Origin: Branchiostoma floridae
Lineage: Eukaryota; Chordata; Leptocardii; Amphioxiformes; Branchiostomatidae
Assembly: GCF_000003815.2 (NCBI RefSeq)
Contig: NC_049995.1
Coordinates: forward strand, 7,771,626-7,835,625
Direction of reading: 5' to 3'
Length of the DNA: 64,000 nucleotides
A model generated the notes under the pieces. That model saw nothing but the letters and a program-made list of their open reading frames with translations, was not told the origin of the DNA and did not search any database. Numbering within the stretch: position 1 is the stretch's first letter; each line of letters opens with the position of its first letter. A program made the position numbers and the translations under genes. This document shows, in pieces, positions 37,031 to 60,812 of the stretch.

Positions 37031-40000
37031 ATGAAGGTTTTCGTAGCTCTTGCGGCATTGCTGGCTGTGGCCAATGGTAAGTCATGCAAACTTCATATCA
37101 TTACCTTCGTGTAGAAAGTTTTTTTTACAGGTTTGCGATAGCAGAACCTGTATCGTTTTTGTTGGCGTCCTTGGGCGCCGCCATATTTTTCAGTGTGTTT
37201 GAACGTTTGTGTTGTTGTCTCTTCCCGAAGGTGTAACTGGAGACTGGTAGGATGCAAAGGTCGACTTGAAGGTCGAAATGGTTTCTCGGTAGGCTAGCAG
37301 GAAGTGACAGAACATTTTCCATATGCTAGTCACGAAGGTTTTGTTTTTGTGGTGTCTGGATGTTTGTGTTCTTGTCCCTTCCCGAAGTTGCAATCGGAGA
37401 CTTGTAGGATGTAAATGTCGACTTGGAGGTAAACATGTTTTTCCCGCATGCGGGGTGTCAGGAATTGGGCTGCGCACCAGGCGTACCTGGGCTGGCTATT
37501 ACGTCAGGCTTCTCAGATACCCTCATTCATAGCTCCAATTCTTCTTTCACTTGCAAACACTACTTTTTGGGCGAGTCTAATGCTATAGTATTGTGTGCGA
37601 GTACCTTGACACAAGGCTAGAGGGAGAACATTATGCATTTTTATTTCAGAAATGTTGCCTTTCTAGTTTCATTTAGTTCACTTTCGGTACTCCGTTTCTT
37701 GCTACAGGATGCGGTCAGCAGGCCATCCAACCACGTACCATGGGCATGACTCGCGTGGTCAACGGGGAGAACGCGGCTGCACACAGCTGGCCGTGGCAGG
37801 TAAGGCCCGGTCACATCCATCGTGCGATCCCAAACTGATGGAAGTCTCGGGATAGTCGTGAATGGGTCGCGCGAAATCTATATGTCTTTTTACCGAAAAG
37901 GCTGTCTAAGATCCTTATCAATGGCTGGTTCGCACGACGACCCACAACGAATAAGACTGTGAACCACTGATAAGTTACTTATCTAAAGTATGCAGCCTAT
38001 ATTAGTAACTGTTATTCTTCGCTATAGTATAGCTCAATAAAGACGAAAAGTTCTAGAGCCGATAACTCTACTTTTGAGTGATACTTTCCATCACATCAAA
38101 AGTGGATGATATCTGAATCGTCTGAACGTTAACATTATGCAAACAATTGCTTTCTTGAATAACCTGTGTATTGTGTACGTCTATGTTACCGGGATGTCTT
38201 AACTACACTCTGTGCTTTTGTTGTCAGGTGTCGCTGCAAACCTCCAGCACCTGGCACTACTGTGGCGGAGTTCTGATCAGTGATCAGTGGGTTCTGTCTG
38301 CCGCTCATTGCTACCAATCCGAGTCAGTTTCATTCTCATTCTTTCAGTCTAAGTTGTCTTGCCTTAGTTGCTTCATGTCTGTTTATATGGTGTTTAAGGA
38401 TACAAGCCGAATCACGTGTATCACCTCTTGAGGGGCTCGTATGTTTTGCCAAGAAATATAGATGGTGAGTGACCAGCACGTCCAGGTCTGTCCTGCGACT
38501 TGCTACATAATGTAATAGAATACTCTACAGGGCGTCTGCTACGTTCACAGTTGCCATGGTGACAGCCGCCTGGTCCAGGTCATTGAGATTTACCACGTTT
38601 ATGGAAGGATTGACATAACTAGGTGACTATCACCTTTTCAAGATGTCAACCCGGAGACCAGATTGTAAGGTTTGATCCACTCACACCGGGAAGTTCCCCT
38701 ACTCTTTTCGACAAGTGAGGCGGGTTCTTTAATGTGCGTGGGGTGTGGCTCTCCCCGAACACGGTACCTCAATTTAACGTCCTATCCGAGCGACGGCCCT
38801 AGTCGAAGGTAGGTGTAAAAGCCGTGTAAAGTGCCTTTCCCAAGGGCATAAGATCGGTGCCACGGCAGGGTTCGAACTCGAGATCCTGACCCAAACACGC
38901 TGCAGCTGCGCCACGCGACCTCACAGTTTTAGACTGACCCTAGTTGTTTACAGAGGAAGGGGAAGAGAAATAAGATAAAAAACGATGTTTACCTTCCACG
39001 TAGGTAAACATTATCACATGTTGATTGTTGATAACCTCTGAACTTTGACCCGACAGCTACTCGACACACAGCGTCATCCTGGGTGAGCACGATCGCAGCT
39101 CCGGCAGTGAGGACATCCAGGTCATCCCCATCGAGCAGGAGATTATGCACGAGCGCTACAGCTCCAGGGTAAGGGGAGGTTTCTTTTCTTACAGGTCAGA
39201 CGCTGGTCATTCAATATACATCCTTTGAACAAAAAGGACTAGACAAAGTACAGCTGAGAAAGTTAATAAGTCAACTTTCTGACGAGATCTGCAGGCAAAT
39301 ATACCGTCATATGATCAAAAAGCCTCAATGAAAAATAGCCTTGCCGGGCCCCGGTTGGGACATGTGGCGTCAGCCTAAGCTTCGAATTCAGCATTGGTAA
39401 CCGAGTGCTGAGAGGATTTCCGCACTGGAAAATGAATGCTGAGACAAGGTTCAGCACTGGAATACCAGTGCTGAGGGAGCTTCAGCACTGGAACTTGAGA
39501 GCCAATCAGCACTGGAAAACCAGTGCTGAACTTCAGCACCGGGCGTCCAGTGCTGCGGCCTCTTTGACCATAGTGCGGAAGGCGAAGTTTTCGTAGACTT
39601 GTAAAACAGTAACTGTTATTCTCCAATTTAAATCCAACAGACCATCGAGAATGACATCATGTTGGTGAAGCTGTCCAGGCCCGCTGTCCTTGGTGATCAC
39701 GTGAGCGTGGCGTGCCTGCCGGAGCAGGGCGAGACTCACCACGACGTCGGCGGGACCTGCTAGATCACCGGCTGGGGCCGCACCAGTGGAACCGGTAAGT
39801 TGTTGTTGTTGTTGTTGTTGTTCAGCTTGTAGCACCTACCCTGGGAGCTAGACTGGATCTGGTAGCTAGCGAGTTTATTCCGCGGGGTCCCAAGGAGGTC
39901 AGACGGTCGACCTCATGGGCGCTCCGAGGAGCCTCATTCAGGCTCAAGTCGGCGGGCTGTCTGCCTTGGGGCCCCGTGGAATAAACTCGCTAGCTACACA

Positions 40001-40954
40001 AACACTTCTGGGATGGAGTGTATCTGGTATGGATCACCATCTGAACTCACAACCAGACTTAGTACCACGTACCAAAATCCCTGTCGCTAACACCCCCCTC
40101 CCCCATTCTTCAGCTGATGGCGCAATGGTCCTCCAGCAGGCCAACCTCCCCCTGAGGACCGACTCCCAGTGCGGCAGCTCCTGGGGCAGGAACTACGACT
40201 CCACCAGCATGCTATGTGCCGGACTCAACGGCTCCGGTGGATGCATGGTAAGGCTTCAGCCTGCGTCACAATTCAAGCTAACGTCGCCCGAATTTTTAGG
40301 TCGGATGGAACTCGCCTAATTTCAAAATAACCCGTTCGACGACCATTTTTTTCGCTGAAATTTTCCCCATCACAAATTGGACCGGCTTTTCACTGCAGGA
40401 AGTTTGAGTCAGGGTCCCCATTGGTCGAATCCCAAAACCACTTCGACCAATCACAATCAGTCTGATAGCGTCTATCTGATTGGTCTTTCCTACTCTTTTA
40501 AACATAGGATATTGGGGTTTTCTTTCCCACAGTCAGTAAAATCTCACCTGCTAACGTTTCGATGCCTTCTAACTGGAGCACTGCTTCTCGCCGCTACATG
40601 TAGGTGGCGCTTTTACTGCGAGAATACAACCCCCAACGTGGTTAAGTTTGTATCCCCCTCGTCCCGGTTCAACACTGTGGTTGATTTTTTTTCCAGACTG
40701 CCTTCTTGATCCAACGGATTCACCTGTTGTCTTTTCTGTTTATTACATTGAACCTTTTCATTGAAGACTTTATTCTTTTCATTCACTAGGGAGACTCTGG
40801 CGGCCCGTTCGTCTGTGAGAGGAACGGTGCGTACGACATTGTTGGTCTAGTGTCCTGGGGCTCCAGCTCCTGCAGCACTTCCTACCCAACAGTCTTCGCC
40901 AAGGTGTCCGCCTACAGGGACTGGATCGAGCAGAGGACCGGACTCACCTTCTGA
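37031..40954 (+). CDS. Chymotrypsin-like serine protease, seven exons, with an in-frame TAG
   Basis: Secreted digestive-type S1 protease. Exons: 37031-37076, 37708-37799, 38228-38322, 39057-39168, 39641-39794, 40114-40247 and 40790-40954. All junctions are GT-AG and phases sum to 266 codons with stop. Signal peptide [16 protein letters not shown]; propeptide starting CGQQ and ending at an activation site R|VVNGENA. Catalytic triad: AAHC (His, exon 3), ENDIML (Asp, exon 5), GDSGGP (Ser, exon 7). The S1-pocket segment is GGCMGDSGG, with Gly at the position where trypsin has Asp, so chymotrypsin/elastase-like specificity is likely. In exon 5 the expected GTCWITGWG reads GTC-TAG-ITGWG at 39761-39763, a TGG-to-TAG nonsense change. 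The protein would stop before the catalytic Ser. All other frame and splice features are intact, so a recent null allele, a polymorphism or a sequencing error are all possible. TATA box and polyadenylation signal are present. Confidence 0.93.
37130..37450. repeat. Two-copy direct repeat in protease intron 1
   Basis: The block GTTTGTGTT..TTGTC(T/C)CTTCCCGAAG and the following AGACT(G/T)GTAGGATG(C/T)AAA(G/T)GTCGAC occurs near 37205-37265 and again near 37360-37420. A relative of the left part (TTTGCGACAGCAAAGTTTGT) is at 60030-60060. Confidence 0.6.
38600..38925 (-). repeat. tRNA-derived SINE, near full length
   Basis: On the minus strand the head at 38925-38860 has CGTGGCGCAGCTGCAG (A box) and GAGTTCGAACCCTGCC (B box). 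The body contains GGATAGGACGTTAAATTGAG and CCGTGTTCGGGGAG. The tail contains AAAGAGTAGGGGAACTTCCC, GTGTGAGTGGATC and AAGATGTCAACC-type complement. A tail fragment of the same family is at 1050-1120. It is in protease intron 3. Confidence 0.75.
39393..39560. repeat. Cluster of small hairpins (CAGCACTGG / CCAGTGCTG)
   Basis: At least three near-perfect hairpins with 9-11 bp stems and 4-5 base loops: CAGCACTGGAATACCAGTGC (near 39452), CAGCACTGGAAAACCAGTGC (near 39508) and CAGCACCGGGCGTCCAGTGC (near 39534). A fourth, degenerate one is near 39391. They lie in protease intron 4, 80-250 bp upstream of exon 5. Confidence 0.8.
39862..39997. mobile_element. Palindromic MITE, GTAGCTAGCGAGTTTATTCC ends
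   Basis: GTAGCTAGCGAGTTTATTCC with CGGGG on the left is mirrored by CCCCGTGGAATAAACTCGCT and AGCTAC on the right. It lies in protease intron 5. Confidence 0.7.
40417..40485 (+). repeat. Intron 6 copy of a 65-bp block also present after the stop codon (40977-41042)
   Basis: CCATTGGTCGAAT..CAAAA..CTTCGACCAATCACAA and ATCTGATTGG occur here and in the 3' UTR. Each copy contains an inverted pair ATTGGTCGAA / TTCGACCAAT. Confidence 0.85.
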
Positions 40955-42183: not shown

Positions 42184-45100
42184 TTATTTGTCTTCATCAT
42201 GGCTAACGCCCCTGTTGACGTTTGCGGTCATCACGGCGACAGCATCCAGACGACCGAGAAGCTCCAGACCTTCCGTGATCTTTCTCGCGGCTTCAAACTT
42301 ATCCACCTAGTATTGATACAAGGAAAATTTTAGGAAGGTCATTATCACATCCGACAAAAGAAGAGACCAAAAATGTCCCATGTCTAGTTCGGAGCGAACC
42401 TTAATCGTAAACACACCCAAATAAACAAAGTCGAAGAATTCACAGAAATGTCTATAGCTAGTCAACAGACCTACTGATATATCTACTAGTAAGTATAAGA
42501 ATAGGTTTTTATATACCGATGGTCTCTTTCTCGATTCAATATGTTGCACGTTCAGAAAGGCCTATGAATGGAGAGTTTTATGAAATTTCCTCATTGATTA
42601 TGCAAATTAGATTCGGATTTGCATAACTACATCTAATTATTTCAAACATCACAAGTTATCTACATAGAAATCATAACGACTTCCCAGCCCTTTTTGAGTC
42701 ATTCTCTTTCAAATTGTAAAACTAACCTGGCTCCTGAGGTTAGAAAAATCCACCAGGGACCCGCCAGGGACCCGCCAGGGACCCAAACCTACACCACTTA
42801 GTCTCAGTCTTTACCACTCAAAAATCACGAGCATAGCATGTCAAGAACTCCAGATATCAACACAGGAATTTCTACTTCAGTTACGTAACAAGTCGCTAGA
42901 AATTTGATAATTTCACGGTGTTATCGGGACCTACCAATTACACATACCAATTACACATACCAACTATCAAATTCCATCCATCCATTCAGGCCTTCTAGGG
43001 TTATGCTGTTATTCCCCCTCCTACACACTATACCAAAAACATGCATAACCTTTTCACGGAGGTAAATGTAATTTGACAGTGAAGACTCACCTTGGTTCCA
43101 TAGTCGATGAGAAGCGCCATTGTTGGACTTTCCGTCCGTTGGAAGTTGAGGATCTCCGTCACTCCGTAGCCCAGATGATCGGCGAGACCCTTCCAGTCGT
43201 TCCCGAGGACTCGCGGGGGGTCCAGCAGGAGGGCGAGCTGCTGGATGTGGGAGTACTGCAGCTGGGTCTGAGGGCGGGACCTGCGGCTCACTAGGGGAAA
43301 CGTACAGCAGCATACTTAGTACTGAATGAAACACATTAGTTACGCAAATGAGGTCCCTATTTACACTAAGTGAGCTGCTGAATGTGGGAGAACTGCAGCT
43401 AGGACTGAGGGCGGGACCTGCGGCTCACTGAGTGAAAAGTACAGCAATATACTGAACGATACACATAAATTACGCAAATAAGGTCCTTATTTACATATGG
43501 CGAGCTGCTGCATGTGAGAGTACTGCAGCTGGGTCTGAGGATGGGGCCTGCGGTCCTCTACGGGAAAAGTACAGCAATATACTTAGTTTAGCACATCAAT
43601 TACGCAAATAAGGTACTTATTTACATAAAGCGAGCTGCTGGATGTGGGAGCCCGAGGACGGAACCTGTGGCTTACTAGGTGAAAAGTACAGCAGTATACT
43701 AAACGAAACACATTGATTACGCAAAGAATGTCTTTATTTACATAAAGAGAGCTTTTCATGGAGATAACAAGAAAAAATTGTACAGGACGTACCTGCAGTA
43801 CTCATTGCCCGCGCGACCTGGTGCTCTCGTCCGCAACACAGGAACATCAGAGGGTGGCTCTCATTCGGGAACATCTCCCCACTTCCTGCTAACTTCAGCA
43901 CGTGGATTCTCTCTGGTTCTGTGTAGTCCGAATGTGGTGCCTCGAAGGGACAGCAGACTCCACTGGTGTAGGACATGTTCGGGAAATCCCTGCGCCGAAT
44001 GGCCTCAAGGATGTCGTGTAGCATCCCAAGCAGGTCAAAAGGATTGCTTCCTGTTGCTGACGTCACAGTTATCTTCAGAACGTTTTGGTCAGGCGCTGGT
44101 CTCATCGGCTCAATGGTGAACCAGAAACGGTTGGCCACGTTGAAGCACCCCACGTTTCGGAAGACATGGGTGCGCGTGTGCGTTTTCTCCTTCACCTTAC
44201 ACAAGGCGAGGCACCTTGCGACGACTCTGGTGTACACGACGTCGGGGTTGAAGGTCTCAAAGTCGATGTAAAAGATTTGATCATCGTCGCCGTGCCGTTC
44301 CGAAAGGCTGCGATGCAGCTTGGGGTTGTATTCTGGTAGCCGGCTAGGTACAAGATATGTTGTGTGACCAGGGTCACAGTCGGCCTCCTCTCCTAACGGA
44401 CACAGCATGTCGTAAGCAACAAGCAGCTTCAGCAGTACGGAGGGCTCGTCGATGTTGAGTTGGGCAACCGCGCTATGGATGAAGTCGGAGCGAACGATTC
44501 CCTTCTTTTCGAGCAGAGTCAGATGTTCGACATACTTGGGCATCCCAATGTGAGTCGGTTGTGGACAGGTTATCTTGGCCATGGCATCCACAAGAAGCTG
44601 TGGGTCCAACACAACGTAGTTCTTCAAGGTTTCATCATTTCCTTGGTAGATGATGTCACCAGCCTGGTCGAAAGTCGTCAGTACATCGTAGAATTCTTCT
44701 TCGTTTTCCAGGCCAATTTGAGAACACTCTTGTCGTAGGTTATCCAAGGAAATGATGGGTTTTTCTGTACGCTTCATGACTTCTAAGAACTTCAGCCATC
44801 TGATGGGAAGTTGCCTGCGTACGTAGTTGGCTTGCTGAGTCATGGTCCATATGGCGTCGCGTAGACAGATCATGTCCTCATCAACGGGCTTCGAGTTCTC
44901 GACGGGAAACAAGGGCGTGTGGTCGGCATTTAGAACAAGCAGGGAAGAAAAGCAGGTTGATCTGTACAGGTTCTTAGAGAGAAACGTGGCGACATCTTGC
45001 CTTTGGAGTGAAGTCACGCTGTCTCGGTGTGTTCCCACCAGAAACACTGCGCAGTCCTCACTACTGGCGTGAGTCTTCACAGAATGAAGCCAAAACAGTA

Positions 45101-48100
45101 GGCGTTCCAGCGTTCTGTTCTGATTTCGGACAGCTTCAACCAGACTGAACACGAGTAAGTACACTGCCTCGTGGGCGAGGAAGATGTGGTGCATACTGTA
45201 GTACTCCTCGTCACCAGCGAAGTCCATCAACGTCAGGTTCGTTGGGAACGACTGCGCCCCATTTTCTTTCTCTCGCATGGACTCGTCGATCAGTGTGACA
45301 GGAATGCTCAAGTAGTATTGGTAGTACTGGTAGCATTCTATAAGCAATAGTGCCATAGCAGTAAAGACAGCAACGTAAGAAATATTGTCAGCGGGTGTCA
45401 GGTGCCATCCAGCAGCGAGACCGAAACACAGAGAGAGTAGCACGCCTCCAAAGACCTCACCACAGCATTTCAGGTACAGATGTCGGACTGGCACCATCGC
45501 CGACAAAGCACGACCTGTTACCAGACCAAAGCAGGTTCCAAACCCCGCGCAAAAGCCGGAGTATAGCATAAGGACGGTTTCCGGTATACGATTGAAAGTA
45601 CTCAGAGCAATAATGACAATAAAGAGGGACAGATAGGTTTTACCAGAGAACTGTCACTGTGCGAAAGGGTGTGATTTCCGGACAAAGTCGGAGTTGACAT
45701 ATTTTTGGACATGCTAAATATTCGGACTGTGTCCGGGCACGATGTTCAATATTTCCCATATCTGGAAATATCATGAGTCAGGAATTGTCTTGTTATGTAT
45801 CCGGACAAATAAGACTTTCCTGCTTTTCAAGATACGCGCCATTGACGTTTCTTGCCTCCGAATACGTGATATGTTCTACATTCTTTACATATCCAAGGTC
45901 CATATATTTCGATAAGGAATGCCCGGACAAATTAGGAGTTTGCACGAAGCATGATGTGCATTATTTCTGGGCCATTGTCATATGACATTTTCAATTCATT
46001 ATGTCTCAGAATATCATGAGTCATGAAATGTTTCAGCACATGCCCGGACGGATAGAATTTCCCGTTCTTCCGAATACGTGTCAGGGACGTTTCATGTTTT
46101 CGAATTCATACTATTTTCTTTTCTTTCCATTTACGAGACATATCCGCGACAGATATTCCATGGATTAGTTTTAGGACAGATTCGAAGTTAGCATATTCTG
46201 ACCGTTACCGATAAAGGTATTCTATACGTGAATTGTGAATCGGTGATTGTTTTATTGCGCATCTGAACAAATAAGACTGCATTTTTTTGCCGAAATTTTC
46301 GCTCCTTCCGAATTCATATTCCGTTCCATTTACGACAGATGTCCAAAACAGAAACATTCCAGAGATCAGTTTTCGGACAACTTAATGGTTAACAAATTAC
46401 TTTTCTTGTCATACATGAATCTGAGATTGTTTTGTTGGGTATCCTTAAAAAGGTTTCCTATCTTGTCAAATACACGTCATTAACGTTTTTGCTTCTGTAT
46501 ATTATTCTACAACGAGTATGCCCGATGTCAATGTATGTTTACACTTTAATTTTCTGGTAATTGAAGCTTAAGCTTCCATATACATGTGCAAATATACTGA
46601 CATCGACATTTACAATCAAATGACACAGAAAGTAATCTTTGCGATGGTAACAATTATGAGTCAAGTATTATTGTTTCTTTGCATATCCGGACAATATCTT
46701 GAACAAAGTTCAGTCAAAACACTCCACCCCAGCGGTGCAGTTTGGGATAGGTCCATATCCGGACAATATCATGAATAAAGTTCAGTCAAAACACTCCACC
46801 CCAGCGGTGCAGTTTGGGATAGGTCCATATCCGGACAATATCTTGAACAAAGTTCAGTCAAAACACTCCACCCCAGCGGTGCAGTTTGGGAAAGGTCCAT
46901 ATCCGGACAATATCTTGAACAAAGTTCAGTCAAAACACTCCACCCCAGCGGTGCAGTTTGGGATAGGTCCATATCCGGACAATATCTTGAACAAAGTTCA
47001 GTCAAAACACTCCACCCCAGCGGTGCAGTTTGGGATAGGTCCATATCTGGACAATATCTTGAACAAAGTTCAGTCAAAACACTCCACCCCAGCGGTGCAG
47101 TTTGGGATAGGTCCATATCCGGACAATATCTTGAACAAAGTTCAGTCAAAACACTCCACCCCAGCGGTGTAGTTTGGGATAGGTCCATATCGGGACAATA
47201 TCTTGAAAAAGTTCAGTCAAAACACTCCACCCCAGCGGTGTAGTTTGGGATAGGTCCATATCCGGACAATATCATGACAAAAAGTCACTCATGATATTGA
47301 ATACCAGCGTTGCTGTGTGGGAATGGTCCATATCCGGACAATATCACGAGGCAACTTTACTCGTAAAGCGGTTATGCAAGCTGTGCAAAGTGCCGAGCAG
47401 ACCAGTACGTTGGCATGTCAACGGTGCGCCTACTGGGGCAGTCGTTGCAGATAACAGCCTACACCGCGCCACAGCGTTTGCTGCTGTGTACAACTTTGAA
47501 ACTGGTAAGTACATGATGCATTTATTCACAAAAATAATGCACAATACCACGTGTTTCCGTGAAACAGGCATGATGGATGACACTAACTTGCTTGGAACCA
47601 TCTGGAGGAGTCCTTAGGTAACAAGACTATATTAGGAAGTCACATGACTTGACTAGACCAATAGTAGACCAGCTGGTGACAGCAGTTAGGTTTGAAACTA
47701 GATTTGAATCTCAGCCGCTGCCGCTAGCCGCTACCGGACCAAGAAGTGAGTAGTGTAGCTCTCTAGTACATAGATTGTATATACATAGCAGTTACCGTTC
47801 TTAGTTCCGTATATGTCTGTCAGCAATGTCTGTTATCCCTTCCTAGTGTTTTGTGTATTTAATGATTAGTAGTGTGATCTCTTTGTAAAGATTGTTGTAT
47901 GATAGATCACTTCTCTTTCAGCTGGAACCCCGCGTGTCATCCCCGGCTTGTTTACAAATTGCCCGTTCCATAGTTAGTTAAATTCTCATATTATTTTGTG
48001 CTGTATGTGCCGTAACGGCTGCTTCTAAACTTTCCTGTCCTGTTGTTTTGGCTGGCTAAATCTTTAATAGAACCAAGGAGAAACTGTAATCTCCTCACTA

Positions 48101-51100
48101 GTACCAATGTGATTGTGTGCATATAAAATTCCATTCGTTCTCTGGGGGTCCTTATAAAAAAGCGAGAATCTATTGTACAGTAACAGACCGACTTGTTTAA
48201 CTTGTATATTATAATTACACTATGTCAATGCGGCATTTATGTTCACATTCCTGTACTATACATGTATGTAGTTATAGATCTTAGACGAGTCATTGTATTG
48301 ATTGACTTATCACCGTTGCCTTACAATTGTACCATGTACAAATGTCGTGCAATAAAGTTCATTCATTCATTATCATGTGCCATCTGTGTGGCCCGCGCCC
48401 TTTGATGATAGCCGACTCCAGATTCCTGCCTTTGTCCCCGTCTTGTCCTGCTGTGATTTTTATGGCCGTGTTGTTTGAATAATTTTACATGTACCGTTCA
48501 TGGGTTCGGGGCAGTTACTAGCCGTTTTTTTTCCATTCCAGCCGCTGAGCCTCTGTTTCCCAATCGCCTGTCCTGCCATGCCGACGACCGAGGCCTACCT
48601 CCTGGTAACACTTACGACAATCTGTGCCCGTAACCGTTGTATCCTGCCAGAACTGTTTCTACTCTGAAGACGGACGGTGCCTGGACTATGCAATGGAGCG
48701 GACTGTCCTCGAGACGTGCCGTCGATATTGCGGGGTCTTGCCAGAGCATCTTCCGTCGCCAATGATCGTCCACTACCACAAAGACGCAGAAGAGGGCGCC
48801 CCGGACGATGATTCCAGATTCCCAATGATATCAAGCACGTCACCGGAACGTACTGCGCCTGCGCAAACCCTGGTAGTTTGGGGCTTGGTTTGGTCAACGT
48901 TGCATTAAAATCCCGCTTGTTGCACAGTATATGTTAGAGACATGGTTTCGTGTAAAACGTACACGGAGTTTTACGCTTATATACGCACGTACTTTCTTAA
49001 ATGCGGCCCTTTAGTAAACCGGGAGTTTAGCATGTCTATACTTTTCGCGCAGGCGCAGTACGTTCCGGTGACGTGCTATGATATCACAATGGAATGAACT
49101 CTCGCGAGATCTCCACTCGCGTGAGTTTATGACATGTGATATAACTCCCCCTCTATTCACAAGTGAATCATGAGCCGCACGAACAGGACGTTGCCAAGCA
49201 GAGCTCCTGTAGCGCGGTACCAGCCATGTGCAAGCCGGTGACATCTTTTACTTCTGGGAACGTATCTTGCCGGCAGCAAAGGACTGAGTAGTTTCCTTTG
49301 GCGTTAGTGTCACTAACCTAGAAGGTACGCAGTATTGCCTTGCCGCCTTATGGCGTGTTCTGGAATTTTCGTTTGGCGGTCTGTTTCCCGCGCTTTGGCG
49401 GGACAGTGTTCTCAGTGCAGAGACATTTTGCTGTCTGAATTTCGTTTTATTATTCTGTGAATTTGTTTGCTCACCTTTCCTAAGGCGTGCAGCTTGTGTT
49501 TTAGAGCATATTCGAGTTTTCAAATGTTCCTTCTGATACTCGTGTCATTTATGAGTGGAATTTGCATCTGTATGTGGAGCGCACGTGTTCGGGTGCGCAG
49601 GTGAGATTGATTCAACTTAGCGTGGTTAACTTGGCTTCGGATGCATTGTGATTTCCTTGTTTGTTTGTTTTTTCGCATGAGTTAGGTATTCAGACAAGGC
49701 TGTATCACCACCAGGACTGCCGTAATCCTTGTTTTCTCGCGCAAGGAGCCTAATGGAGCAGAACAACACTGAACTAATCACCGAGGGCCTGGAGGAGCAC
49801 CTGACATTCCTCCCCTGACGACAGTAGTGGTTAAACTTATTACTGACACCGCTGTGGGTGAGTTAAGCCATTTTTTGGAAACTTTGGGCAGTCGTCAAAG
49901 TGGTGGTCAGTGTTTTTCTGTGTGTGCCGAAGCGCCATGTTTCGGGTAGAGTTGCCTGATTGGGCTGCTCTCGTTTTAGCAGTGTTGCTTGTCTGTTTTA
50001 CCGTACAATTTTGCCATGGTTTTCTGTGCTAGGCCAGCATTTCTGCAATCTGTGGAGCAGTCAACAGCCCGGAAAGTGGTTGGACCAGGCTCAAAGACTT
50101 CATTACTCGGGCAGTAGTCAACAATTTGCAGCGGTGATTCCAAGTTGACTGTGATATCCTTTCTGAAAGTGTTTGTTTTTGCACTTCAGGTTGTCGGACA
50201 GTCTGTACGCTAGTAAGAGATCTTTTAACCGTCGTGAACTCGTGATGTTTCTGTTTTCTCAGTAATTTTTGCCGCGATGACGTAACATGTGATGTGCCCT
50301 TCTTCCAGTTTACCAGCTCCTGTCATGCTGATCGGCGGGGCGCAGTTCGGGGCGGGTCGCAGGTCTGCACTAAACCGGCGTTCTCTCCACCACAGCCCCT
50401 GTCGGGCTGATCGGCGGGGAGCAGTTCGGCACTAACCCGGCGTTCTTTCCTCCCCAGCTCCTGTCAGGCTGACTAGCGGGGAGCAGTTCGGCACTAACCC
50501 GGCGTTCTCTCCTCCCCAGCTCCTGTCAGGCTGACTAGCGGGGAGCAGTTCGGCACTAACCCGGCGTTCTCTCCTCCCCAGCTCCTGTCAGGCTGATCGG
50601 CGGGGCGCAGTTCGGCACTAACCCGGCGTTCTCTCCTCCCCAGCTCCTGTCAGGCGGACTGGCGGGGCGCAGATCGTTACTAACCCGGCGTTCTTTCCTC
50701 CCCAGCTCCTGTCAGGCTGATCANNNNNNNNNNNNNNNNNNNNNNNNNNNNNNNNNNNNNNNNNNNNNNNNNNNNNNNNNNNNNNNNNNNNNNNNNNNNN
50801 NNNNNNNNNNNNNNNNNNNNNNNNNNNNNNNNNNNNNNNNNNNNNNNNNNNNNNNNNNNNNNNNNNNNNNNNNNNNNNNNNNNNNNNNNNNNNNNNNNNN
50901 NNNNNNNNNNNNNNNNNNNNNNNNNNNNNNNNNAGCAGCACCGTCGGACGGTGTGGTACAGTAATTTGTGTTTATTGTATTTGCTGTTGGACAGCGGCAC
51001 CGTCGGACGGTTTGGTACAGTAATTGTTGCATATTGTATTTGCTGTCGGACAGCGGGCACCGTTGGACGGTGTGGTACAGTACATACATCGTGTATGTTG

Positions 51101-54100
51101 TATTTGCTGTTGGACAGCGGCACCGTCGGACGGTTTGGTACAGTAAATTGTGGCATATTGTATTTGCTGTCGGACAGCGGGCACCGTTGGACGGTGTGGT
51201 ACAGTACATACATCGTGTATGTTGTATTTGCTGTTGGACAGCGGCACCGTCGGACGGTTTGGTACAGTAAATTGTTGCATATTGTATTTGCTGTCGGACA
51301 GCGGGCACCGTTGGACGGTGTGGTACGGTACATACATCGTGTATGTTGTATTTGCTGTTGGACAGCGGCACCGTCGGACGGTTTGGTACAGTAAATTGTT
51401 GCATATTGTATTTGCTGTCGGACAGCGGGCACCGTTGGACGGTGTGGTACAGTACATACATCCTGTATGTTGTATTTGCTGTGGGACAGCGGCACCGTCG
51501 GACGGTTTGGTACAGTAATTGTTGCATATTGTATTTGCTGTCGGACAGCGGGCACCGTTGGACGGTGTGGTACAGTACATACATCGTGTATGTTGTATTT
51601 GCTGTTGGACAGCGGCACCGTCGGACGGTTTGGTACAATAATTGTTGCATATTGTATTTGCTGTCAGACAGCGGGCACCGTTGAACGGTGTGGTACAGTA
51701 CTTTGTTGTATATTGCATTTGCTGTCGGACAGCGTGGCCGCCGGACGGTGTGGTATAGTATATGACTGTATGTTGTATTTCCTGTTGGACAGCGGCACCG
51801 TTGGACGGTGTGGTACAGTACATGGTTGTATATTGTATTCGCTGTCGGACAGCAGCACTGTAGGACGGTGTGGTACAGTACATACATGGTTGTATGTTGT
51901 ATTCGCTGTTGGACAGCGGACTCCGTCGGACGGTGTAGTACAGTACATGGTTGTATGTTGTATTCGCTGTTGGACAGCGGCACCGCCGGACGGTGTGGCA
52001 CGGTACATACATGGTTGTATGTTGTATACGCCGTTGGACAGCGGCACCGTTGGGCGGTGTAGTACAAGTACATGGTTGTATGTTGTATTCGCTGTTGGAC
52101 GGTGTGGTACAGTACTTTGTTGTATCTGGTATTTGTGGTTGGACAGCGGCACCGTTGGAGGGAGTGGTGCAGTATATGACTGTATGTTGTATTTGCTGTT
52201 GGACAGCGGCACCGTCGGACGGTGGGGTGCAGTACATGGTTGTATATTGTACTCGCTGTGGAACAACGGCACCGGTGGACGGTGTGGTGAGATTGTTGGA
52301 CAATCGTGTAGAGAATTCGTTGTTGGACAGCGGGGTGCGTCAGACGGTATAGTGGATTTTCGCTGTAAGACAACGGGCGCCGGTGGACGGTAATCGTAAC
52401 TTTGTTTGATTTGAGTCGGTGTTTCATTTGATATGACGACAGGTTGTTGGACAACCTCAGATTTTGTTTGGTTTGTTGCATGGTTGGTGAACAAATCCAT
52501 GGTAGGTAACAAACCGTACGGTAGTACAGTGAAGACCTACCTTGTTGGACAGGTCAGAAGTAAAGGTCAAAGGAATGGAGGACACAATGGGAACAATGGA
52601 ACTTCGTTTGTCACAATTAGATTGTGACCTTGGACGACATGCAATTTTCGATAAGGTCCGCAGCGTCTGCACGGTAATGTTGGATGGTGATTTTACCGTT
52701 GACTGAACCGGTGTTTGCGTTTCTTGTTATGCAAGTTTGGAATAAAGACAAAGATCTTGACGAGTTTCTCGTGTCACATTCCTTCCTACCATTGGATTTT
52801 CTGTGTTCCTGTTTATTGGCTACCTTTAGCTGGCCTAGTTCTCACTCGTGGACCGTGTTCAGCTCCCTTAAGCTGTTGCCACCCATACTGGCTTCGGCCT
52901 GGTGGTCCGGGAAGCGAGTGGGGCCTGTCCAGACTGAAATACATAGAACTGTGCGTAAAGGTCGACAGTTACAGGTTAGATACGGAGCAAGCATTGTGGT
53001 GATAGCTTTCTCTGCAGCTGGAATATTGTTCTTGTATACGCAGAGAAATCAATGTTTGATTTCCAACACGACGCAGGATGAGTTGAACTACTGTAAACCT
53101 GGGAGAGGTTGGTCTCAGGTAATCTCTAAGGGTTCTCTATCTAATCGGACTGGTCGTCGACCATTCCGCTGAGTTCGGATTGGACAGGTCCCACTCGAGC
53201 CGGACCTTAGGCGCCCAAGGAACTTAGCTGAGAACCAGGGATCAATCTGCATTCCTGAGGAACACCTAAAGACTGATGACTGTGATAGTCTTACACCCAC
53301 CCTGTTGATAACAACAAGCATGCGCAGCAGACCATAGGGGATGCTGCTGTGTTGTCAAGGTGGCTTAATGCATACGTAGAGGGTTTTGTACGGAAAGGCA
53401 CAGAGGTGAGGGAGTAAATATAAGGGATTGGGGTAATGAAGACAATAAGGATTGGGAAAAGGGAATGGAGAAGAATAAGGATTGGGAGAGGATTAAATGA
53501 AGGGAAATGTAGGAACTTAAATTAGGGGAATAATGGCACTCGGGAGAAGCGGGTGCCGAGGTCTTCTCACCCCAGTCCTTAACTCTCCACTGAGGCAACG
53601 TGAGTGGGAATATATTATGATTCCCAATGATATCACAATGGAATGAACTCTCGCGAGATCTCCACTCGCGTGAGTTTATGACATGTGATATAACTCCCCC
53701 TCTATTCACAAGTGAATCATGAGCCGGACGGGAGGGACACAGCCTAGCAAGAGTAGACTAGTCTAGCTACAGTCCACGGTCAGAGGCAATGTAGGTTTCT
53801 AGCGTAGCCGTTTTTCACCAGAGGGATATCTCCGATCTGTGTGGATTATCCAAAGCTCCGAAGTTATATGCAACTACTACCCTACATGCGCTAGATGTTT
53901 GTGTACTGCAGGGACCAGAGTACACGAACAACCAAAGCAAGTAGTCAACTGGTTGTCCCAAAGCCTAAGCGAGAGACCTTCAGAAGATCAATAGCCTACC
54001 GTGGGCCCAATGTCTGGAACAGCCTACCGCCAGACACAAAGAGTGTATGGCTCTTTCTCATGTGGTACAGCAGTCGGAATAAAACCGAGTGTCAGTCATT

Positions 54101-57100
54101 TGGTACTTTGTGTAATAATAGTTGCCATATCATGTACAATTGTCGGGCAATAAAGTTCTGTTCAAGTGTAGGTGTCTTTTCTGTGTTATATCTGAACAAC
54201 AGAGCGCAACACATGATATCAAGTTTCGGAGCAATTCTTCACCTTTTCTGCTGAAGAGGATATTAGTAGATGGGGGGAGCACGGGAAAGAAGTGCAGTCA
54301 AATTTTTAGCCCCCCCACCCACCCACCCCCTAAGTATTTTACGGGTAAGCATGGAATCTCGGATTCCACGATGCCTCGGTCTTCTCACCCCAGTCCTTAA
54401 CTCTCCACTGAGGCAACGTGAGTGGGAATATATTATCAGTCAACACGATACGGACTTATAGAGGACTTGAAAATGGACTGTCGTACTGATTTCGTAATGA
54501 CATTTTTATCCTACGAATATTGATTGTATGGTTTATAACGTTAGACTTGTGTCGGATACTGTACATTTGATATTGTACATTTAAACTGATCAGTTTTGTT
54601 ATGATGTTATTGACTTGGGCTTGATATTATTGGATCTGACAGTGAACTGTTTAACTTTGGCTTCACTCGAGCTTCACTTTTTGTGAAGACCAATGAGGTT
54701 GTAGTGAGCTAAAACTTCCTTGGTAAGACTAAGAGACAAATGCATATTGATTTGCCCCTTGACGTTAACATGATCTGTTCCTCCACATAATGTATTTGTT
54801 GTGATACTTGTGTCATCTGATTTATACAGGAAAGTCTTTGAAAAGCTTTCACAAAATGTAGCCTTACCGAGTTAGCATTTTCGGGGTTAAAACGGACAGG
54901 AAACGCTAAATATTAGGTATTTAGCATGATCGTAAAGTTACTGGATATTCTGAAATAATGTGTTGTATTGTTCCTATGATGTTTCAGTATATCTTAAGTT
55001 TATGCAACCTTTCCGGGGCGTAATAGCCCCGAACGCGCTCAGAAAATATGAAATATTCGGAACGTGTTTTGTCTCCAAAGAGTCCTAGAACGTTCCATTA
55101 CTTGAAATCCGGATATGCGACATGATTATATGGTCCCATTCTTGACTCCTGAAATTATCCGGATTAATACGAAATATTCGGAACGTGATTTGTATCCAAA
55201 GAGTCCGAACACGTTCCATTACTGGAAATCCGGATATGAGACGTAATTATTTGGTCCCGTTCCGGACTTCTGAAATTATCCGGATATATACGAAATATTC
55301 GGAACGTGGTTTGTCTCCAAAGAGTCCGAAAACGTTCCATTACTGGAAATCCGGATATGAGGCAGGAATTAAATGGTCCCGTTCCGGACTCCAGAAATTT
55401 TCCGAAAACGCAGGGGAGTCATGTCAGATTTCGTCCGGATATTGTCCGGATATATCCAGAAACGGTCCCGATCCGGATGTATACAAACATAGAAACGTCC
55501 GGAAATGACACCCTTTCGCACAGTGTATAGGCATGTTGGAAGTCGGTGAGCAAGGAGGCCCCAGTACTGGTAAGTTATAACTCCAGTGGAAAGTCCCGCG
55601 GTAACCAGAGCGTTTGAAACAATCATGTCAAGGTCTGTTCCTAGTTCCGACATAAACCAGGTCCAGGACAAAGCTCGAACACTGAACACTTGAGAAGGAG
55701 AAGACATTAGACAAAGAACGATGCTCATCATTGGTCGAAAACCAAAACCCAAGGAAGCCGCCAGAGGGATGCAAACAAGTGCAAAGCACAGGCCAAGGAA
55801 AGGAAAACATGCTATCCGTCCGAAAACACGCAGACACTCCTGCGACATGGTTTTCAAGGCGAGTGGTGAAACTAAGCAACTTCTAAAAATAAGCGCAACT
55901 GTCATGCCTGTTCCCGTTCTGGTTGCTGTCATCAGATCAGTTACACAAGCCATGAAGACTATGAGAGAAATGAGAGCATAAGCATATCCTAGATTGAGCA
56001 TCAAGAAGACGGCGATGAACTCAACCAACGGAAGAAAGCAAAAGAAAAGAACGTCAAGCGCGACGGCATAAGACATTTTTCCCTCCGTTCCAAAATCTTG
56101 CTGGACTTTACTTTGCCCCGTCATCATAGCAGTGTACCAAGCCGCTCTCCTCTCATACTCGGACTCACGGCGCTGGGCTGGGCTGTGCCAGTGATGGTCT
56201 ATGTCCTTTGTTTCCACCATCTTGGCTTGAATGCCCTCGGTTTTCTCCTGGTTGGGGTCAAAAGGTTCTCCCGTCAGACGCTTCTTCAGACTCGTCTTAC
56301 CCTGCCGAGCATCTCCAAGAAACAGCACCTGTATCAGAAAAATACTAATAAACTAGAGTTCCACGACCCCATACCTTCGCCAAATGATTCTAACCTTTAC
56401 AACTGCTGTATCAATTGTTTGTTATTGATTATGCAAATAAGATTCTCATTTGCATAAATTATATTACTTGATCATCTTCTCCACCAAACAATGGGACATA
56501 CACAATCTATGTAAAAAACGTTTTTAGCACATTTTCTGATAATTTATGCAAATTAGGTAATCATTTGCATAATCAATGTTCAATGATGTTCACCTGTATA
56601 TAACTTGCAAATGCCACAAGTAAAAACTTCCCGTCATTTGCCACAATGCCATTATAGCATTTCCTCATTAATTATGCAAATTAGGTCTTTATTTTGCATA
56701 ACATATCTATCAACATTCTTCTCTTTCTCAGTTACAAATGCCACACGTTGCAATGGAACGGAACGTGTTTTGACGATTTCCTAATTAATTATGCAAATTA
56801 GATTCTGATTTGCATAATTGATACGTAATTATATGAAGCATCACTTAAGCTATGTACATACCAAAAATCATGACAATCCGTCAACTCCTTCTTGAGTTAT
56901 TCCCTTTCAAAATCTGACACTAAACCTGCCCTGCAGTTCCAAAACAAGCCGCTAGGGGGTCCAAACCTATACCTCTTACTCTCGGCATCAAGAGCTATCC
57001 ACCACTTAAAAATCATTGCCGCAGCATGTCCAGAACTCGAAATATCAAACCAGGAAGTTACGCTGCAGTACCATAACTGGCCACTAGGGGGCCACAAATC

Positions 57101-57897
57101 TAATCGTTTTTAGATTTTAACAAGACCTACCTACATACCGAATATTATTACAATCCATCCAGGCGTTATCATGGTCTTCTACAGACATAGAAACAAACAT
57201 ACACACATACACACGCTACCCAAAATATAACCTTCTCGGCGAAGGTAACAAATGGTAACAATGGTAATTTGTCAAACGTGAAGGCTCCTGAGACGTTTAC
57301 AGCACTTGGCGTTATTTCGGTTTTCGTGACAATAATCATCAGGTGTATTTTGCCAGCCAGTAGGTTACATTATGAGTAATGAGGCTGTTTAACGTGATCG
57401 AGGCACCTCCTCGAGCACGGGACCCCGTTTACGTCCCTCCCGGAAGACGATTTTCGTGGAAAGCTTCGTGAGGCTACAGCAATCCGGTCGTCGTTGGTTG
57501 GTCCCCCCCCCCCCTCTCCAAGAACTGACCGGACAGTCGCGTTGCTTAACTTCTGAGATCGACGGATCGGGTGTACCAACGCGCCACGCGGCCCGACGGT
57601 AATGGCGCCTGCAAAATGGCGGAATGTTGACAGTCGGGAGCCCTCATCTTTGAGATATTACTCAGAATTCCTGTCGCATGCGCATGCGTAGTCGAATCTG
57701 CGAAAGACCTTTTACAACAGGATGAATATGATGAATGATATGTTTCTCACCTTTCCCCGGTTGATGGGAAGCTTGCCGTGTATCCTGCCGTACCGGTACG
57801 TGAGATAGGCGGCCTTGATCTTGTCTTCATCCACGTACACACTGCCCGGCACGGGAGCGCCGTCTGCCATGCGGGACTTCCCCCACACCTTCCCCAT
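42184..57897 (-). CDS. Roc-COR GTPase with a multi-pass membrane module inside the GTPase domain and a C-terminal death domain
   Basis: Exons (minus): 57751-57897, 55526-56328, 43793-45650, 43091-43290 and 42184-42306. The Roc domain starts with a P-loop, LFLGDARQGKTSLKKRL, at an exon start, then a threonine-containing switch-I-like EKTEG. About 300 residues of hydrophobic segments follow, perhaps ten spans by eye (DVLFFCFLPLVEFIAVFL, ALISLIVFMACVTDL, CFALVCIPLAASLGF, YLSLFIVIIALSTF and others). Then come the G3 motif LMDFAGDEEYY and G4 VGTHRD. COR-type sequence follows (PIRWLKFLEVM, YVVLDPQLLVDAMAKI), then a death domain across the last two exons (LALLLDPPRVLGNDWKGLAD, LELLGRLDAVAVM). Known Roc-COR proteins signal in autophagy or cell death, and DAPK1 has a similar Roc-COR-DD end; the embedded membrane part is unlike any I know. 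The second coding exon is split by a 9.87-kb transposon; the two sides join in frame (1043 codons in all). Met at 57897 is provisional: an AG acceptor just upstream permits earlier exons. Confidence 0.85.
42580..42850 (-). repeat. Inverted fragment of the ATTTGCATAATTAATGAG repeat
   Basis: TTCCTCATTGATTATGCAAA and GACCCGCCAGGGACCCGCCA (a short tandem) belong to the reverse orientation of the repeat at 31970-33300. It lies in the last intron of the Roc-COR gene. Confidence 0.55.
43235..43755. repeat. About 130-bp tandem array containing the death-domain exon acceptor
   Basis: Units start with GAGCTGCTG at 43235 (genuine exon), 43372, 43502, 43632 and a truncated one at 43749 (spacing 137, 130, 130, 117). 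Each carries 40-55 bp resembling the exon 5' end (GGGAGTACTGCAGCTGGGTC, CTGCGGCTCA), the acceptor region, and an intron part with TTACGCAAAT and TATTTACAT. Outer copies carry substitutions and deletions in the coding part. Confidence 0.88.
46684..47283. repeat. 72-bp tandem array, about 8 copies
   Basis: Near-identical units beginning TATCCGGACAATATCTTGAA and ending GGGATAGGTCCA. The 72-bp length is a multiple of three, so both strands show spurious 24-residue repeat frames. It belongs to the left subterminal region of the CACTG element and repeats its TCCGGAC word once per unit. Confidence 0.95.
47284..48910 (+). other. Exon-like open segments inside the CACTG element (possible captured gene fragments)
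   Basis: 47345-47506 is open (APTGAVVADNSLHRATAF, VYNFETG) and ends at GTAAGT. 47929-47980 follows CTTTCAG and reads AGTPRVIPGLFTNCPFHS then stop. 48541-48604 follows CCATTCCAG and reads AAEPLFPNRLSCHADDRG, ending at GTAACA. 48624-48905 is a cysteine-containing frame (VSCQNCFYSEDGRCLDYAME, ETCRRYCGVLPEHLP). The first three join in compatible phase; the last does not join them simply. No family recognised. They could be pieces of a gene captured by the element. Confidence 0.35.
48193..48370 (+). repeat. LINE 3' end remnant
   Basis: TACAATTGTACCATGTACAA followed by TGTCGTGCAATAAAGTTCAT and TCATTCATT is the typical 3' terminus of a non-LTR retrotransposon; a similar terminus is at 54125-54165. 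Confidence 0.5.
49078..49172. repeat. About 95-bp block duplicated at 53628-53727
   Basis: GATATCACAATGGAATGAAC, TCTCGCGAGATCTCCACTCG and CCCCTCTATTCACAAGTGAA are shared almost perfectly with 53628-53727 in the same orientation, inside the CACTG element. The block contains the palindrome CTCGCGAG. Confidence 0.9.
49173..50328. other. Interior of the CACTG element, no gene recognised
   Basis: Short frame 49752-49817 (MEQNNTELITEGLEEHLTFL plus P and stop) follows an AG; nothing else resembles a protein. No repeat array. Confidence 0.35.
50329..50723. repeat. 62-bp tandem array, six-plus copies, cut by the assembly gap
   Basis: CAGCTCCTGTCAGGCTGA words start at 50331 and 50393 (variants), then 50455, 50517, 50579, 50641 and 50703: a constant 62-bp period. 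Each unit ends with TTCTCTCCTCCCCAG, which looks like a polypyrimidine tract and acceptor on the plus strand. Confidence 0.93.
50724..50933. other. Assembly gap, 210 N
   Basis: Undetermined bases between two different tandem arrays, so the true length is uncertain. Confidence 0.99.
50934..52400. repeat. 59-64-bp minisatellite with 124-bp higher-order structure
   Basis: About 24 units of GGACAGCGGCACCGTCGGAC then GGT..TGGTACAGTA and TTGTATTTGCTGT. From 50989 to about 51670, units alternate 59-60 and 64 bp as nearly identical dimers (starts 51112, 51236, 51360). To the right the array becomes monomeric and degenerate. The core ACCGTCGGACGGT can form a hairpin. Long frames are open on both strands and cross the gap, so they are unlikely to be genes. 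Confidence 0.93.
52401..53900. other. Interior of the CACTG element, no gene recognised
   Basis: A 162-codon plus-strand frame (52684-53172) contains one possible membrane segment (ASIVVIAFSAAGILFLYT), but no family is recognisable and no splice context supports it. The duplicate block at 53628-53727 (see 49078) and CCCAGTCCTTAACTCTCCAC at 53571 (repeated at 54388) are inside. Confidence 0.35.
53905..54180 (+). mobile_element. LINE C-terminal fragment
   Basis: 53930-54050 encodes QLVVPKPKRETFRRS and IAYRGPNVWNSLPPDTK, the usual end of CR1/L2/Jockey-like polyproteins, then TGTACAATTGTCGGGCAATA and AAGTTC at the 3' end. Confidence 0.7.
54850..55525. repeat. Right subterminal region of the CACTG element with about 120-bp repeats
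   Basis: Three copies (near 55048, 55168 and 55288) of GAAATATTCGGAACGTG, TCTCCAAAGAGTCC, ACGTTCCATTACTGGAAATC and CCGGATATGAG. ATCCGGAT and TCCGGAC words occur about a dozen times. Confidence 0.85.
56400..57240 (-). repeat. Inverted copy of the ATTTGCATAATTAATGAG repeat
   Basis: AATTATGCAAATTAGGT-type words recur near 56430, 56545, 56670 and 56790, followed by AAGCCGCTAGGGGGTCCAAA and the ACACACATACACACGCTACC end. This is the reverse orientation of 31970-33300. It fills the first visible intron of the Roc-COR gene. Confidence 0.65.
57385..57600 (-). repeat. 5S rRNA-derived SINE
   Basis: On the minus strand the head at 57598-57475 reads TACACCCGATCCGTCGATCT then CAGAAGTTAAGCAACG, GTCCGGTCAGTTCTTGGAGA and ATTGCTGTAGCC, which tracks 5S rRNA including its A-box region. 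The body TTCCGGGAGGGACGTAAACG then GGTCCCGTGCTCGAGGAGG is shared with the tRNA-headed SINE at 35150-35335. A 12-C run lies in the head. Confidence 0.75.
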
Positions 57898-60812
57898 GAC
57901 TGACAGCAGGGCTGGATATGTACAATGTGTATGTTACTAAGGGCAACAAGCTTGTGGTACAAAAAGTAGTGTTCTTCTGTAGTTCTGTTACTGACGAGAA
58001 AGAGAACTACTGTATTCTACTTATAGAAGTAAATGGTCCAGAAATCATAACATTAAACAAGAGTTAGTTGACCATGCAATATCTAGTCCCTTTTTTAAAC
58101 TGGTAGGTAGTGTCCGCACCAAGACTAATGATTACATTTTGGGCCCCCTTGTAAGTCTTCTCAAAAGCTCTCAAAATTTTATGGAGGTATGAGGTTGTCA
58201 AACTCTACTTGATAAGAGTTTGAGTGACTTTATTAAATAACATATGAAATAAAATGTAATCAGTAACAATCTTTCGTCTTCAGATATCATTCTACATGCC
58301 AAACCTGATTTGTTTGGCGAAGGTATGTGTTTGTGGAACTCTAGTTGTATTTGCTAGGTATCATCCAAAGGTACTAGGTCCTTAAATTTGTCTGATAACA
58401 AATTTCCAGTTAAACAAACACTCTTATTTGTGCATGGTATATCCCACGGCCAGGCTAACACTGCCAGAACACAAGGCAAGTGTAACCTGACCCTATAGCT
58501 AGCTATCCCTTATCAGCAACGCAACCTATAACTCACCAAGCAGATGTTAGTGGGGGAAGATTGTCACCAAACTGCCCCTGCATGTTCCTACGGCGGTTAC
58601 CCTTGGTCGTGCTTGATTGTTACTCTACGGATTAAAATCAGTGTTACCTCTTCACGCGGTTTACATAAAGTCCAGTATTGGTGCCTTAGATAATGAGAAA
58701 TCATTTATTCATGAATTTCCGCTTCCCATTCACTAAGGGGAACTGCAAGCGGCACATTATGCAGAGTCAGGTAGCTCACGTGATGGTATAGTTAACGCGT
58801 GACTTGTATTAGTTACGACATGAAACGAGATGTAGATATTTCAGATCCTAAAATTGGTAATATATTTTATGATCTTTTATGGTTGTCAGGGGTTCTGCTC
58901 ACAGGGTAAGGGGGTACATGGTCAGCGCATGGGACCACAGCGCACTTGTTCTCCTTTTTAAGCAAAAATGGCAATAAAAACATGATTCAAATAGCGACGA
59001 TTGTCTCTACAGTGATACTAAATGTGAGTATAAGACAGACCAGTATTAGGAAAGAATGGACTAGATGCAGCATTTTTTGCTGGATTTTTTTTCGCCCTCG
59101 CGCATTAGTCTTGGGTTACCAGAGGATGTCATCCATAAAATTAAGCATGTCCTTAACACCATCTGAACGGCCACGGAACAGCATACAGACATTTCCCAGA
59201 ACAATCTAAAAAGTCAACATGGACGATTGACATAGCTGGGTACGTCTAAATTTGACTACTAGTAGTAATAAGTGAATATACTACAGATCTCACAACCTTA
59301 TAAAAGTATAATACAGTGAAAAAAAAAGTTTTCAAAAAAATGCCATACTATCTACTCATAACAACTAATGGAGGTGCAGTTCTTTTAACGTAAAACTGGT
59401 CAAACGTCAGCCTGGAGAAGCAATATGCAAACTGAAAACTCAGCTGAACAAAGACACATCTGTGGTCATCTGACAAGTCGACACACAGGATCAACATGTA
59501 GGTACCTGTTAACGTGGGTAAAGACCGGCATTCCACAAGGAAGCAAGTCAACATACAGTTCCGCAAGTCGAGTGTACATGTCAACGTATGACGTTACATA
59601 ACGACGAAACATCAACTTCAGACAACTAGAACAATGATACAGCTGTCATACAAATCAACACACAAGATAAACATCATACCTATGCTAGCACGCAGCTTAC
59701 ACTACATCGGGCTGCTACGTCGAGAGTAGAGACCGCCTCCACCCGGAAGTTTCCGACGATCAAAAGCAAAAGAGGAACAATATGTCTGACCTTCGTGATA
59801 CGTCATGCACATTCGTATTCAACAAGAGTTCGGAGACGTAGACCTTATCCCTCAATGAAATATTCATATATTGTGTAAATTTCCTTATATTCCACTCCAC
59901 CATACCGTAGGTATGGGAGTGAAACATATTGTATATTTCGCTCCAACATACCGTATGTATGTGAGAGTGAAATATGGTGCATATTTCAATCCACCATACT
60001 GCAAGCATGGGAGTAAAATGTATTCTTTTCACAGGTTTGCGACAGCAAAGTTTGTATTGTTTTAATCGGCATCCATGGGTGACGCCATGTTGGCTCTGAC
60101 GTCAACGAAGGCCATCTTATTTTTTGGTGGGGATGGCGTCAACAGCGTGTTGTTGTTGCCTCGTCGAAAGGAAATGGACGGCAGCAATGAAGTGTTAGCC
60201 TGGTGTATGATATGACAGTGTATTGAGGTGTGATGGATATGTTGATTTTAATGTGGAATTAAAAAATGAAATTTAAGTTATATGGTGATGGTGTTGCTTG
60301 GATGGTGCCCTCAAAATATAGATGAACTACTCAGCGTGATTTTGATGACATGCATACATCAGTGTTTTTTGGCCGTGGAGATGATTTTGACGCATTTTCT
60401 ATATCTAGATTTTGAGAATTTTTGCAGTATACTCCATATTCCATCCTGTAAAATGTAGATATTTTTGGTAAAAGTGCTCGTGTCTTTTAGTCCCGAGCAG
60501 GATGAATCATGCTTACCATTTACAACTGTAGGGTAAGACGTAAAAGTTTTTGGTGTTGTAATCTGCAAAAGTAACTCAATTATTTAGTGTTTGAAAAGTT
60601 GAGACTATAAAAAAACACGCGTTTGTCAAGGAAAAGACAGACTCAAGCTTGTTTGCTTACCAATTTTATTGAATAACTGACACTCGACGTAGCTGCTCAA
60701 TAGCTGGTGATTGGTCAGGAAAAGAAGCTAGGCAACCAATCAGCTAGACGACGCCTTATAAAGCTTCGTGAAGGAGGTTGAGATTCAACCAATGAGAGAA
60801 CAGCAGACGATT
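57898..60812. other. Upstream of the Roc-COR gene, downstream of protease 2; no gene recognised
   Basis: No exon with recognisable protein content. Repeats include the element end GGCGAAGGTATGTGTTTGTG near 58315, GAGGATGTCATCCATAAAA near 59125 and a TTTGCGACAGCAAAG element at 60030-60200. A 5' untranslated exon of the Roc-COR gene could lie here, but I cannot point to it. Confidence 0.35.
59885..60020. repeat. Three tandem hairpin units (CCACCATACCGTAGGTATGG)
   Basis: Units of about 55 bp near 59893, 59940 and 59988, each with CCATAC or ACATAC opposite GTATGGGAG or GTATGTGAG, plus TGAAATAT- or AAATGTAT-type ends. Confidence 0.75.

Follow-up and report, generated by a model that had tools for sequence, protein, structure and literature searches.

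The gene on the minus strand of the 64,000-nucleotide stretch of Branchiostoma floridae DNA analysed here (the window) raises the question of whether a Roc GTPase domain can be interrupted by a polytopic membrane module and still belong to one protein with a downstream COR region and death domain. Our five-exon gene model encodes a product of 1044 residues, rather than the 1043 residues given in the original prediction (Table 1). Pfam analysis assigned Roc model positions 2-46 to exon 2 (28 bits; cut-off 27) and positions 47-119 to exon 3 (36.2 bits), both halves exceeding the cut-off and the two matches dividing at 46/47 without overlap, and the P-loop, switch and G3 motifs were present. This division of the Roc model around a hydrophobic module bears out the proposal that the P-loop and G3/G4 motifs lie in one Roc domain. 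Matches to COR-A (49.6 bits; cut-off 35.3) and to the Pfam Death model (35.5 bits) likewise confirmed the predicted COR and death domain downstream, COR-B scoring 18 bits, below its cut-off of 27. Before Roc, where members of the DAPK group carry a kinase, the exon 1 frame gave no Pfam match and the minus-strand frames from 57.95 to 64 kb were read by eye only.

Table 1. Features of the split Roc gene in the window.
Feature	Position	Strand	Description
exon 1	57751..57897	-	MGKV...PINRGK, start of Roc beta-1; from translation and splice sites
exon 1 donor			AAAG|GTGAGA
exon 2	55522..56328	-	P-loop, switch I TEGI, beta-2, then first part of hydrophobic module (from ~56058)
P-loop	starts 56319	-	LGDARQGKTSLKKRL; GDARQGKT from 56316
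intron 2 (transposon)	45655..55525	-	29-nt terminal inverted repeats (CACTGTGCGAAAGGGTG...)
exon 3	43793..45650	-	second part of hydrophobic module (to ~45333), beta-3, G3, G4, COR-A, COR-B-like region
G3	45224	-	DFAGDEEYY
G4	45032	-	THRD
COR-A in exon 3	44343-44807	-
exon 4 (death domain)	43091..43290	-	Pfam Death 35.5 bits
exon 5	42184..42306	-	end of death-domain region and stop codon

Searches of the same genome (513 Mb in 431 contigs, the window lying on contig C17) identified 11 places with exon 2 as query and 20 places when the beginning of exon 3 was used. Both G3 and hydrophobic-module sequence were present at 12 loci, on C17 (window), C18, C12, C1, C8 and C2 and at six tandem positions on C15, while the remaining eight exon 3 matches covered only the surroundings of G3. 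At 8 of the 12 loci, one stop-free frame of 934-981 codons runs from the P-loop through the module and G3 into the COR-aligned region; one of these eight (L029) diverged from the others close to the C-terminus, possibly through a late frameshift. The other four loci were the window with its intron, C18 and L025 (C15) with assembly gaps (N), and C2 in two frames. The single continuous reading frame that had been predicted was thus observed without splicing at eight loci, whereas in the window it is obtained only after removal of a transposon intron. When the loci were aligned, with L025 excluded because of its assembly gap, the Roc halves of the remaining 11 proved to be conserved on either side of the module. 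The distance between P-loop and G3 in these 11 members was 383-410 residues, so that the usual continuous Roc, which is not a defining feature of the Roco family, was absent. Continuous Roc domains are common elsewhere in this genome, as 49 of 147 listed Roc-model matches spanned positions 1-119 within 333-396 nt (hand count; 150 of 370 candidates scored), some of these 49 being small GTPases. Overall, 12 paralogous loci back the architecture originally predicted for the window, in which a polytopic hydrophobic module divides Roc, and COR and a death domain come next. It is very probable from sequence that this family combines a membrane-split Roc with COR, to which at least some copies add a death domain.

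COR and death domain recognition varied between copies. Among the copies scored, only those of the window and C18 passed the Pfam COR-A cut-off, while three C15/C2 copies reached 27.7-27.8 bits against 35.3, L026 gave 20.7 bits for COR-A and 24 bits for COR-B, and the C12 copy (L022) had no Pfam COR match up to E 1. The COR assignment in copies below the cut-off therefore rests on alignment to the window protein from G3 through COR, with 188 bits for L022 and 148-165 bits for the C1/C2/C8/C15 frames, and on the LRRK2 profile match. Death domains followed two tandem C15 copies (47.1 and 45.6 bits) in the two C15 downstream stretches scanned, and the 8 kb following the C18 copy and the 7 kb following the C12 copy gave no recognisable match. 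Downstream of the death-domain frame at L072:1334-1618, an additional incomplete frame resembling a death domain (29.7 bits) was observed at L072:2608-2751 (+).

A tree calculated from the COR region alone (35 rows) placed the 11 split rows in one clade with support of 97/94, in comparison to 24 non-split rows that were the best COR-A and Roc matches after three duplicates were dropped, a sample of the genome's Roco genes and not the full set; the software warned of long branches that come together. This topology fits a single insertion of the module followed by fast divergence. Separate insertions could also account for the family, given these long branches and the module matches of the window and C12 copies, which were not distinguishable from chance (see below). 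Median dN/dS values for seven C1/C8/C15 sequences (21 pairs) were 0.17 for the N-terminal Roc half, 0.36 for the module, 0.19 for the C-terminal Roc half and 0.26 for COR, with module values ranging from 0.25 to 0.91. By median, all four regions are under purifying selection, which is weakest on the module. A sensing role would agree with the faster change seen in the module, although relaxed constraint on membrane helices would look identical. Identity between the window and C18 copies was 67% and 58% in the N- and C-terminal Roc halves, 33% in COR and 21% in the module. A search for prokaryotic relatives, using two peptide patterns drawn from the Roc C-terminal part and COR and not from the module, gave 586 pattern matches in genome contigs, none of which was confirmed by tblastn.

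The transposon that forms intron 2 of the window copy has 29-nt terminal inverted repeats (TIRs) starting with CACTG at 45655-45683 and 55497-55525, the pair being 97% complementary. A 25-base TIR pattern returned 125 genome matches in comparison to none for the reversed control, and among the matches listed these places were mostly arranged in facing pairs approximately 3-10 kb apart. Elements of the EnSpm/CACTA type are characterized by CACT[A/G] termini in inverted repeat, a 3-bp target duplication and a transposase, and we presume that the intron 2 element is akin to these as its CACTG inverted termini match. The one other copy compared, on C1, matched both ends and an internal stretch of the window element at 97-99% identity, which suggests that the window insertion is young. 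The target duplication was a perfect 3-bp TTA/TTA at the C1 copy and ATA/ACA in the window. The C1 copy lacks approximately 5.6 kb of the window element (~48817-54436), the bases on either side being directly joined there, and this segment looks like, and probably is, a nested insertion. Tandem arrays were found within the transposon at 46682-47281 (unit of ~72 bases) and 50938-52288 (unit of ~124 bases), the latter adjoining an assembly gap at 50724-50933.

The ends of intron 2 fall within or beside the TIRs. Its acceptor uses flank sequence outside the transposon, and its donor (CACT|GTGCGA) lies inside a TIR and appeared weak by eye in comparison to AAAG|GTGAGA, GCAG|GTACGT and CAAG|GTGAGT, so that the window copy may be disrupted. 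In that case the 9.87-kb element would not be cleanly spliced, and the window copy would give a truncated protein or none while several paralogues stayed intact. The apparently young insertion, together with the observation that the exon interrupted by the transposon is continuous and lacks an intron at that place in 8 of the 12 loci, agrees with such a loss. Against it stands an in-frame GT-AG pair (55522/45650) between two open flanking frames, and the reconstructed empty site keeps the frame open (CLQFSGK) if the right-hand target copy is used, although the left-hand copy gives a stop. We therefore regard a broken gene as a serious possibility that could well apply here; it concerns the window copy alone and is compatible with the membrane-Roco explanation for the family. 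The transposon intron also represents a natural case in which a mobile element has divided an exon.

The P-loop and G3 motifs were intact in all 12 copies, while the G4 aspartate was present in four (window, C18, C12 and L031) and replaced in the other eight, which comprise all of L023-L031 (the C1, C2, C8 and C15 copies) except L031. Some copies may thus be ordinary GTPases and others altered, replacement of the G4 aspartate with the P-loop and G3 kept being a possible sign of changed nucleotide specificity. The loss of this aspartate in 8 of 12 copies and the insertion between the switches can alternatively be interpreted as the mark of a pseudo-GTPase, where the Roc halves of the family form no working site and the protein, with its COR and death domain, serves as a membrane scaffold. 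We consider this unlikely, since the P-loop and G3 were kept in 12 of 12 copies, median dN/dS was lower in the Roc halves than in the module or COR, and the window, C18 and C12 copies retain every nucleotide motif examined.

The hydrophobic module accounted for approximately 256-293 residues of the distance between P-loop and G3 in the 11 members, in agreement with the roughly 300 mostly hydrophobic residues first noted between the Roc halves. It starts after beta-2 (T.G....V.T) and stops immediately ahead of beta-3 (P..TL.DFAGD). When a profile was built from eight copies, its alignment to LRRK2 began shortly ahead of DFAG (RDL-VLNVWDFAG), which puts the end of the module where beta-3 begins; the initial 36-37 positions of the profile aligned to bacterial Roco chains in their P-loop part. 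By alignment, the insertion site is shown to be the beta-2/beta-3 (interswitch) loop, between switch I and switch II. Core-hydrophobic residues made up 0.52-0.59 and charged residues 0.06-0.12 of the module in 11 sequences, in comparison to 0.39-0.42 and 0.25-0.30 for the COR region of the same number of sequences. Long hydrophilic extra sequence occurred directly before beta-3/G3 in seven other Roco frames of this genome (L035, L036, L037, L038, L045, L049 and L053), for which the even solution placed no membrane span in the 100 residues before G3 in any of the seven, L035 allowing one (odd). These extras, at about the place of the membrane module in the split family, suggest that the interswitch loop tolerates insertions.

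Comparison of the module with other sequences gave no convincing family in Pfam (best E 0.08, by one of eight members) or match in PDB (best E 1.5), and hhalign of its two halves returned a probability of 0.2% for an internal repeat. The C12 module used alone as a genome query recovered only itself at E up to 1, a weak test that missed the other 11 family loci. When scored against the C1/C2/C8/C15 module profile, the C18 module was equalled by none of 300 local shuffles, in comparison to 29 of 299 shuffles scoring equal or better for the window module and 17 of 299 for the C12 module. Module homology across subfamilies, beyond shared position, is accordingly weakly indicated, being found for C18 and not for the window or C12.

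Topology was predicted with a simple model of our own using a hydrophobicity scale. The model gave 6-10 spans, with 8 or 10 in 9 of the 11 sequences. Cytosolic-cytosolic (even) ends scored best in all 11 sequences, and the even solution contained no membrane span in the 450 residues after G3 in any of them. Variation of the model over 54 parameter sets and 10 sequences (C18 omitted because of its gap) showed that even numbers won all 360 runs that included the positive-inside rule, with 8 or 10 spans in 262 of these and 4 or 6 in the rest. Even numbers won 109 of the 180 runs that lacked this rule, and as the even preference depends on it, the parity call rests on charge distribution. The even span number of the original prediction is supported when charge is considered, and hydrophobicity by itself does not decide the parity. 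Odd counts won the other 71 runs and 12 of the 18 runs for the window sequence (even winning 6). An odd span number or a partly re-entrant module would leave the Roc halves on opposite sides of the membrane and prevent a single domain; we nevertheless consider this improbable given the uniform outcome with the positive-inside rule and the joint conservation of both Roc halves in the 11 aligned members. Lastly, the interpretation that the P-loop part and the G3-COR part are different proteins, joined through an artefact of the gene model, has in its favour the ~9.9 kb between window exons 2 and 3 and can be dismissed as extremely improbable, since 8 of 12 loci hold both parts in one uninterrupted frame, which excludes a two-gene or splicing artefact for the family, and the Roc profile divides without overlap.

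Our preferred explanation, held with moderate confidence, is that these loci encode a lancelet family of polytopic membrane Roco proteins whose module in the interswitch loop forms part of a nucleotide-coupled switch. A module of approximately 300 residues, most likely with 8 or 10 membrane helices, would be inserted in the Roc beta-2/beta-3 loop with both ends facing the cytosol, so that the two Roc halves could fold together around one nucleotide. That the two cytosolic halves do form one Roc is likely. The module would anchor the protein and, attached to both switches via beta-2 and beta-3, could bias the nucleotide state. Since switch I and switch II are connected by the loop that carries the insertion, a ligand, a lipid or a neighbouring protein that changes the module could affect how nucleotide is bound or hydrolysed, or in the reverse direction the nucleotide state could move the module; we put forward such coupling tentatively. 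Dimerisation would fall to COR, and the death domain, which would provide the output of the switch, would recruit adaptors. Still more speculative is a class of receptor or transporter formed by a Ras-like GTPase around an 8-10-helix module, in which membrane events would set the nucleotide state without a separate exchange factor and the signal would pass via COR to the death domain. Related behaviour is described in the sections of earlier reports cited here, where the interswitch region of Arf proteins differs with the bound nucleotide (PMC10994351), the beta2-beta3 loop of MglA is part of an allosteric contact (PMC6785124) and membrane-associated LRRK2 is more active and binds GTP better (PMC6337361).

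The split family resembles known Roco proteins (LRRK1/2, DAPK1, MASL1 and bacterial Roco) in having a Roc GTPase followed by COR, with a C-terminal death domain in the window protein as in DAPK1 and a family profile that matches Roc and COR-A of LRRK2. It differs in that Roc is broken by a membrane module and that no LRR or kinase was present in the frames scanned. The Arf family and MglA, in the sections consulted, share an interswitch (beta-2/beta-3) element that is linked to nucleotide or placed in allosteric contact, and we know of no polytopic insertion in the interswitch loop of either. Membrane segments inserted in a P-loop NTPase domain were reportedly described by Aravind et al. in 2004 for the KAP family. 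KAP P-loop NTPases include Kidins220/ARMS and PifA, and the KAP NTPase Tmn is similar to the split family in carrying membrane segments inside the P-loop NTPase domain, although it belongs to another NTPase class. No KAP match was obtained for the family frames (Pfam, up to E 1) or for the module (up to E 5). Two transmembrane domains are mentioned for Tmn in the section cited (PMC11846954), in comparison to most likely 8 or 10 in the split Roc family.

Aplysia TLRs are a membrane receptor family with Roc-COR members and in this respect resemble the split family; they have been proposed to signal (PMC9334734). Their ROC and COR are extra domains of a TLR, and the sections of that report consulted mention no membrane-spanning part within Roc. 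In brown-algal ROCO proteins, the relevant section mentions non-conserved sequence inserted in a ROC domain and no membrane helices (PMC11378527). The term 'transmembrane' was absent from the main text of a Roco review by term search (PMC6337361), and a search of open-access literature, subscription papers being outside its scope, gave no report of a transmembrane insertion in Roc in the titles and abstract starts among the matches listed. The view that no Roc-COR protein of such build had been described thus agrees with the open-access matches listed. Membrane insertion in a P-loop NTPase has a precedent in KAP, and a Roc interrupted by membrane helices is described neither there nor for Aplysia TLRs in the parts of the sources consulted. 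Gene models of split-Roc proteins may well exist in public databases. Interest in Roc-COR proteins stems from LRRK2 and Parkinson's disease, where the link between membrane association and nucleotide state is, according to the section cited, still debated (PMC6337361). If real, a Roc domain with a membrane module in its interswitch loop would offer a direct test of membrane state driving the Roc switch, and would indicate that the Ras-like fold tolerates a large integral-membrane insertion.

Two further kinds of coding sequence were observed by eye in the window. Frames resembling trypsin-type serine proteases (GDSGGPVVCE, WITGWG, SMLCAG) flank the Roc gene at 60788-62336 (minus) and 39866-40330 (plus), and a 224-codon frame at 24288-24962 (minus) resembles the end of a non-LTR retrotransposon reverse transcriptase.
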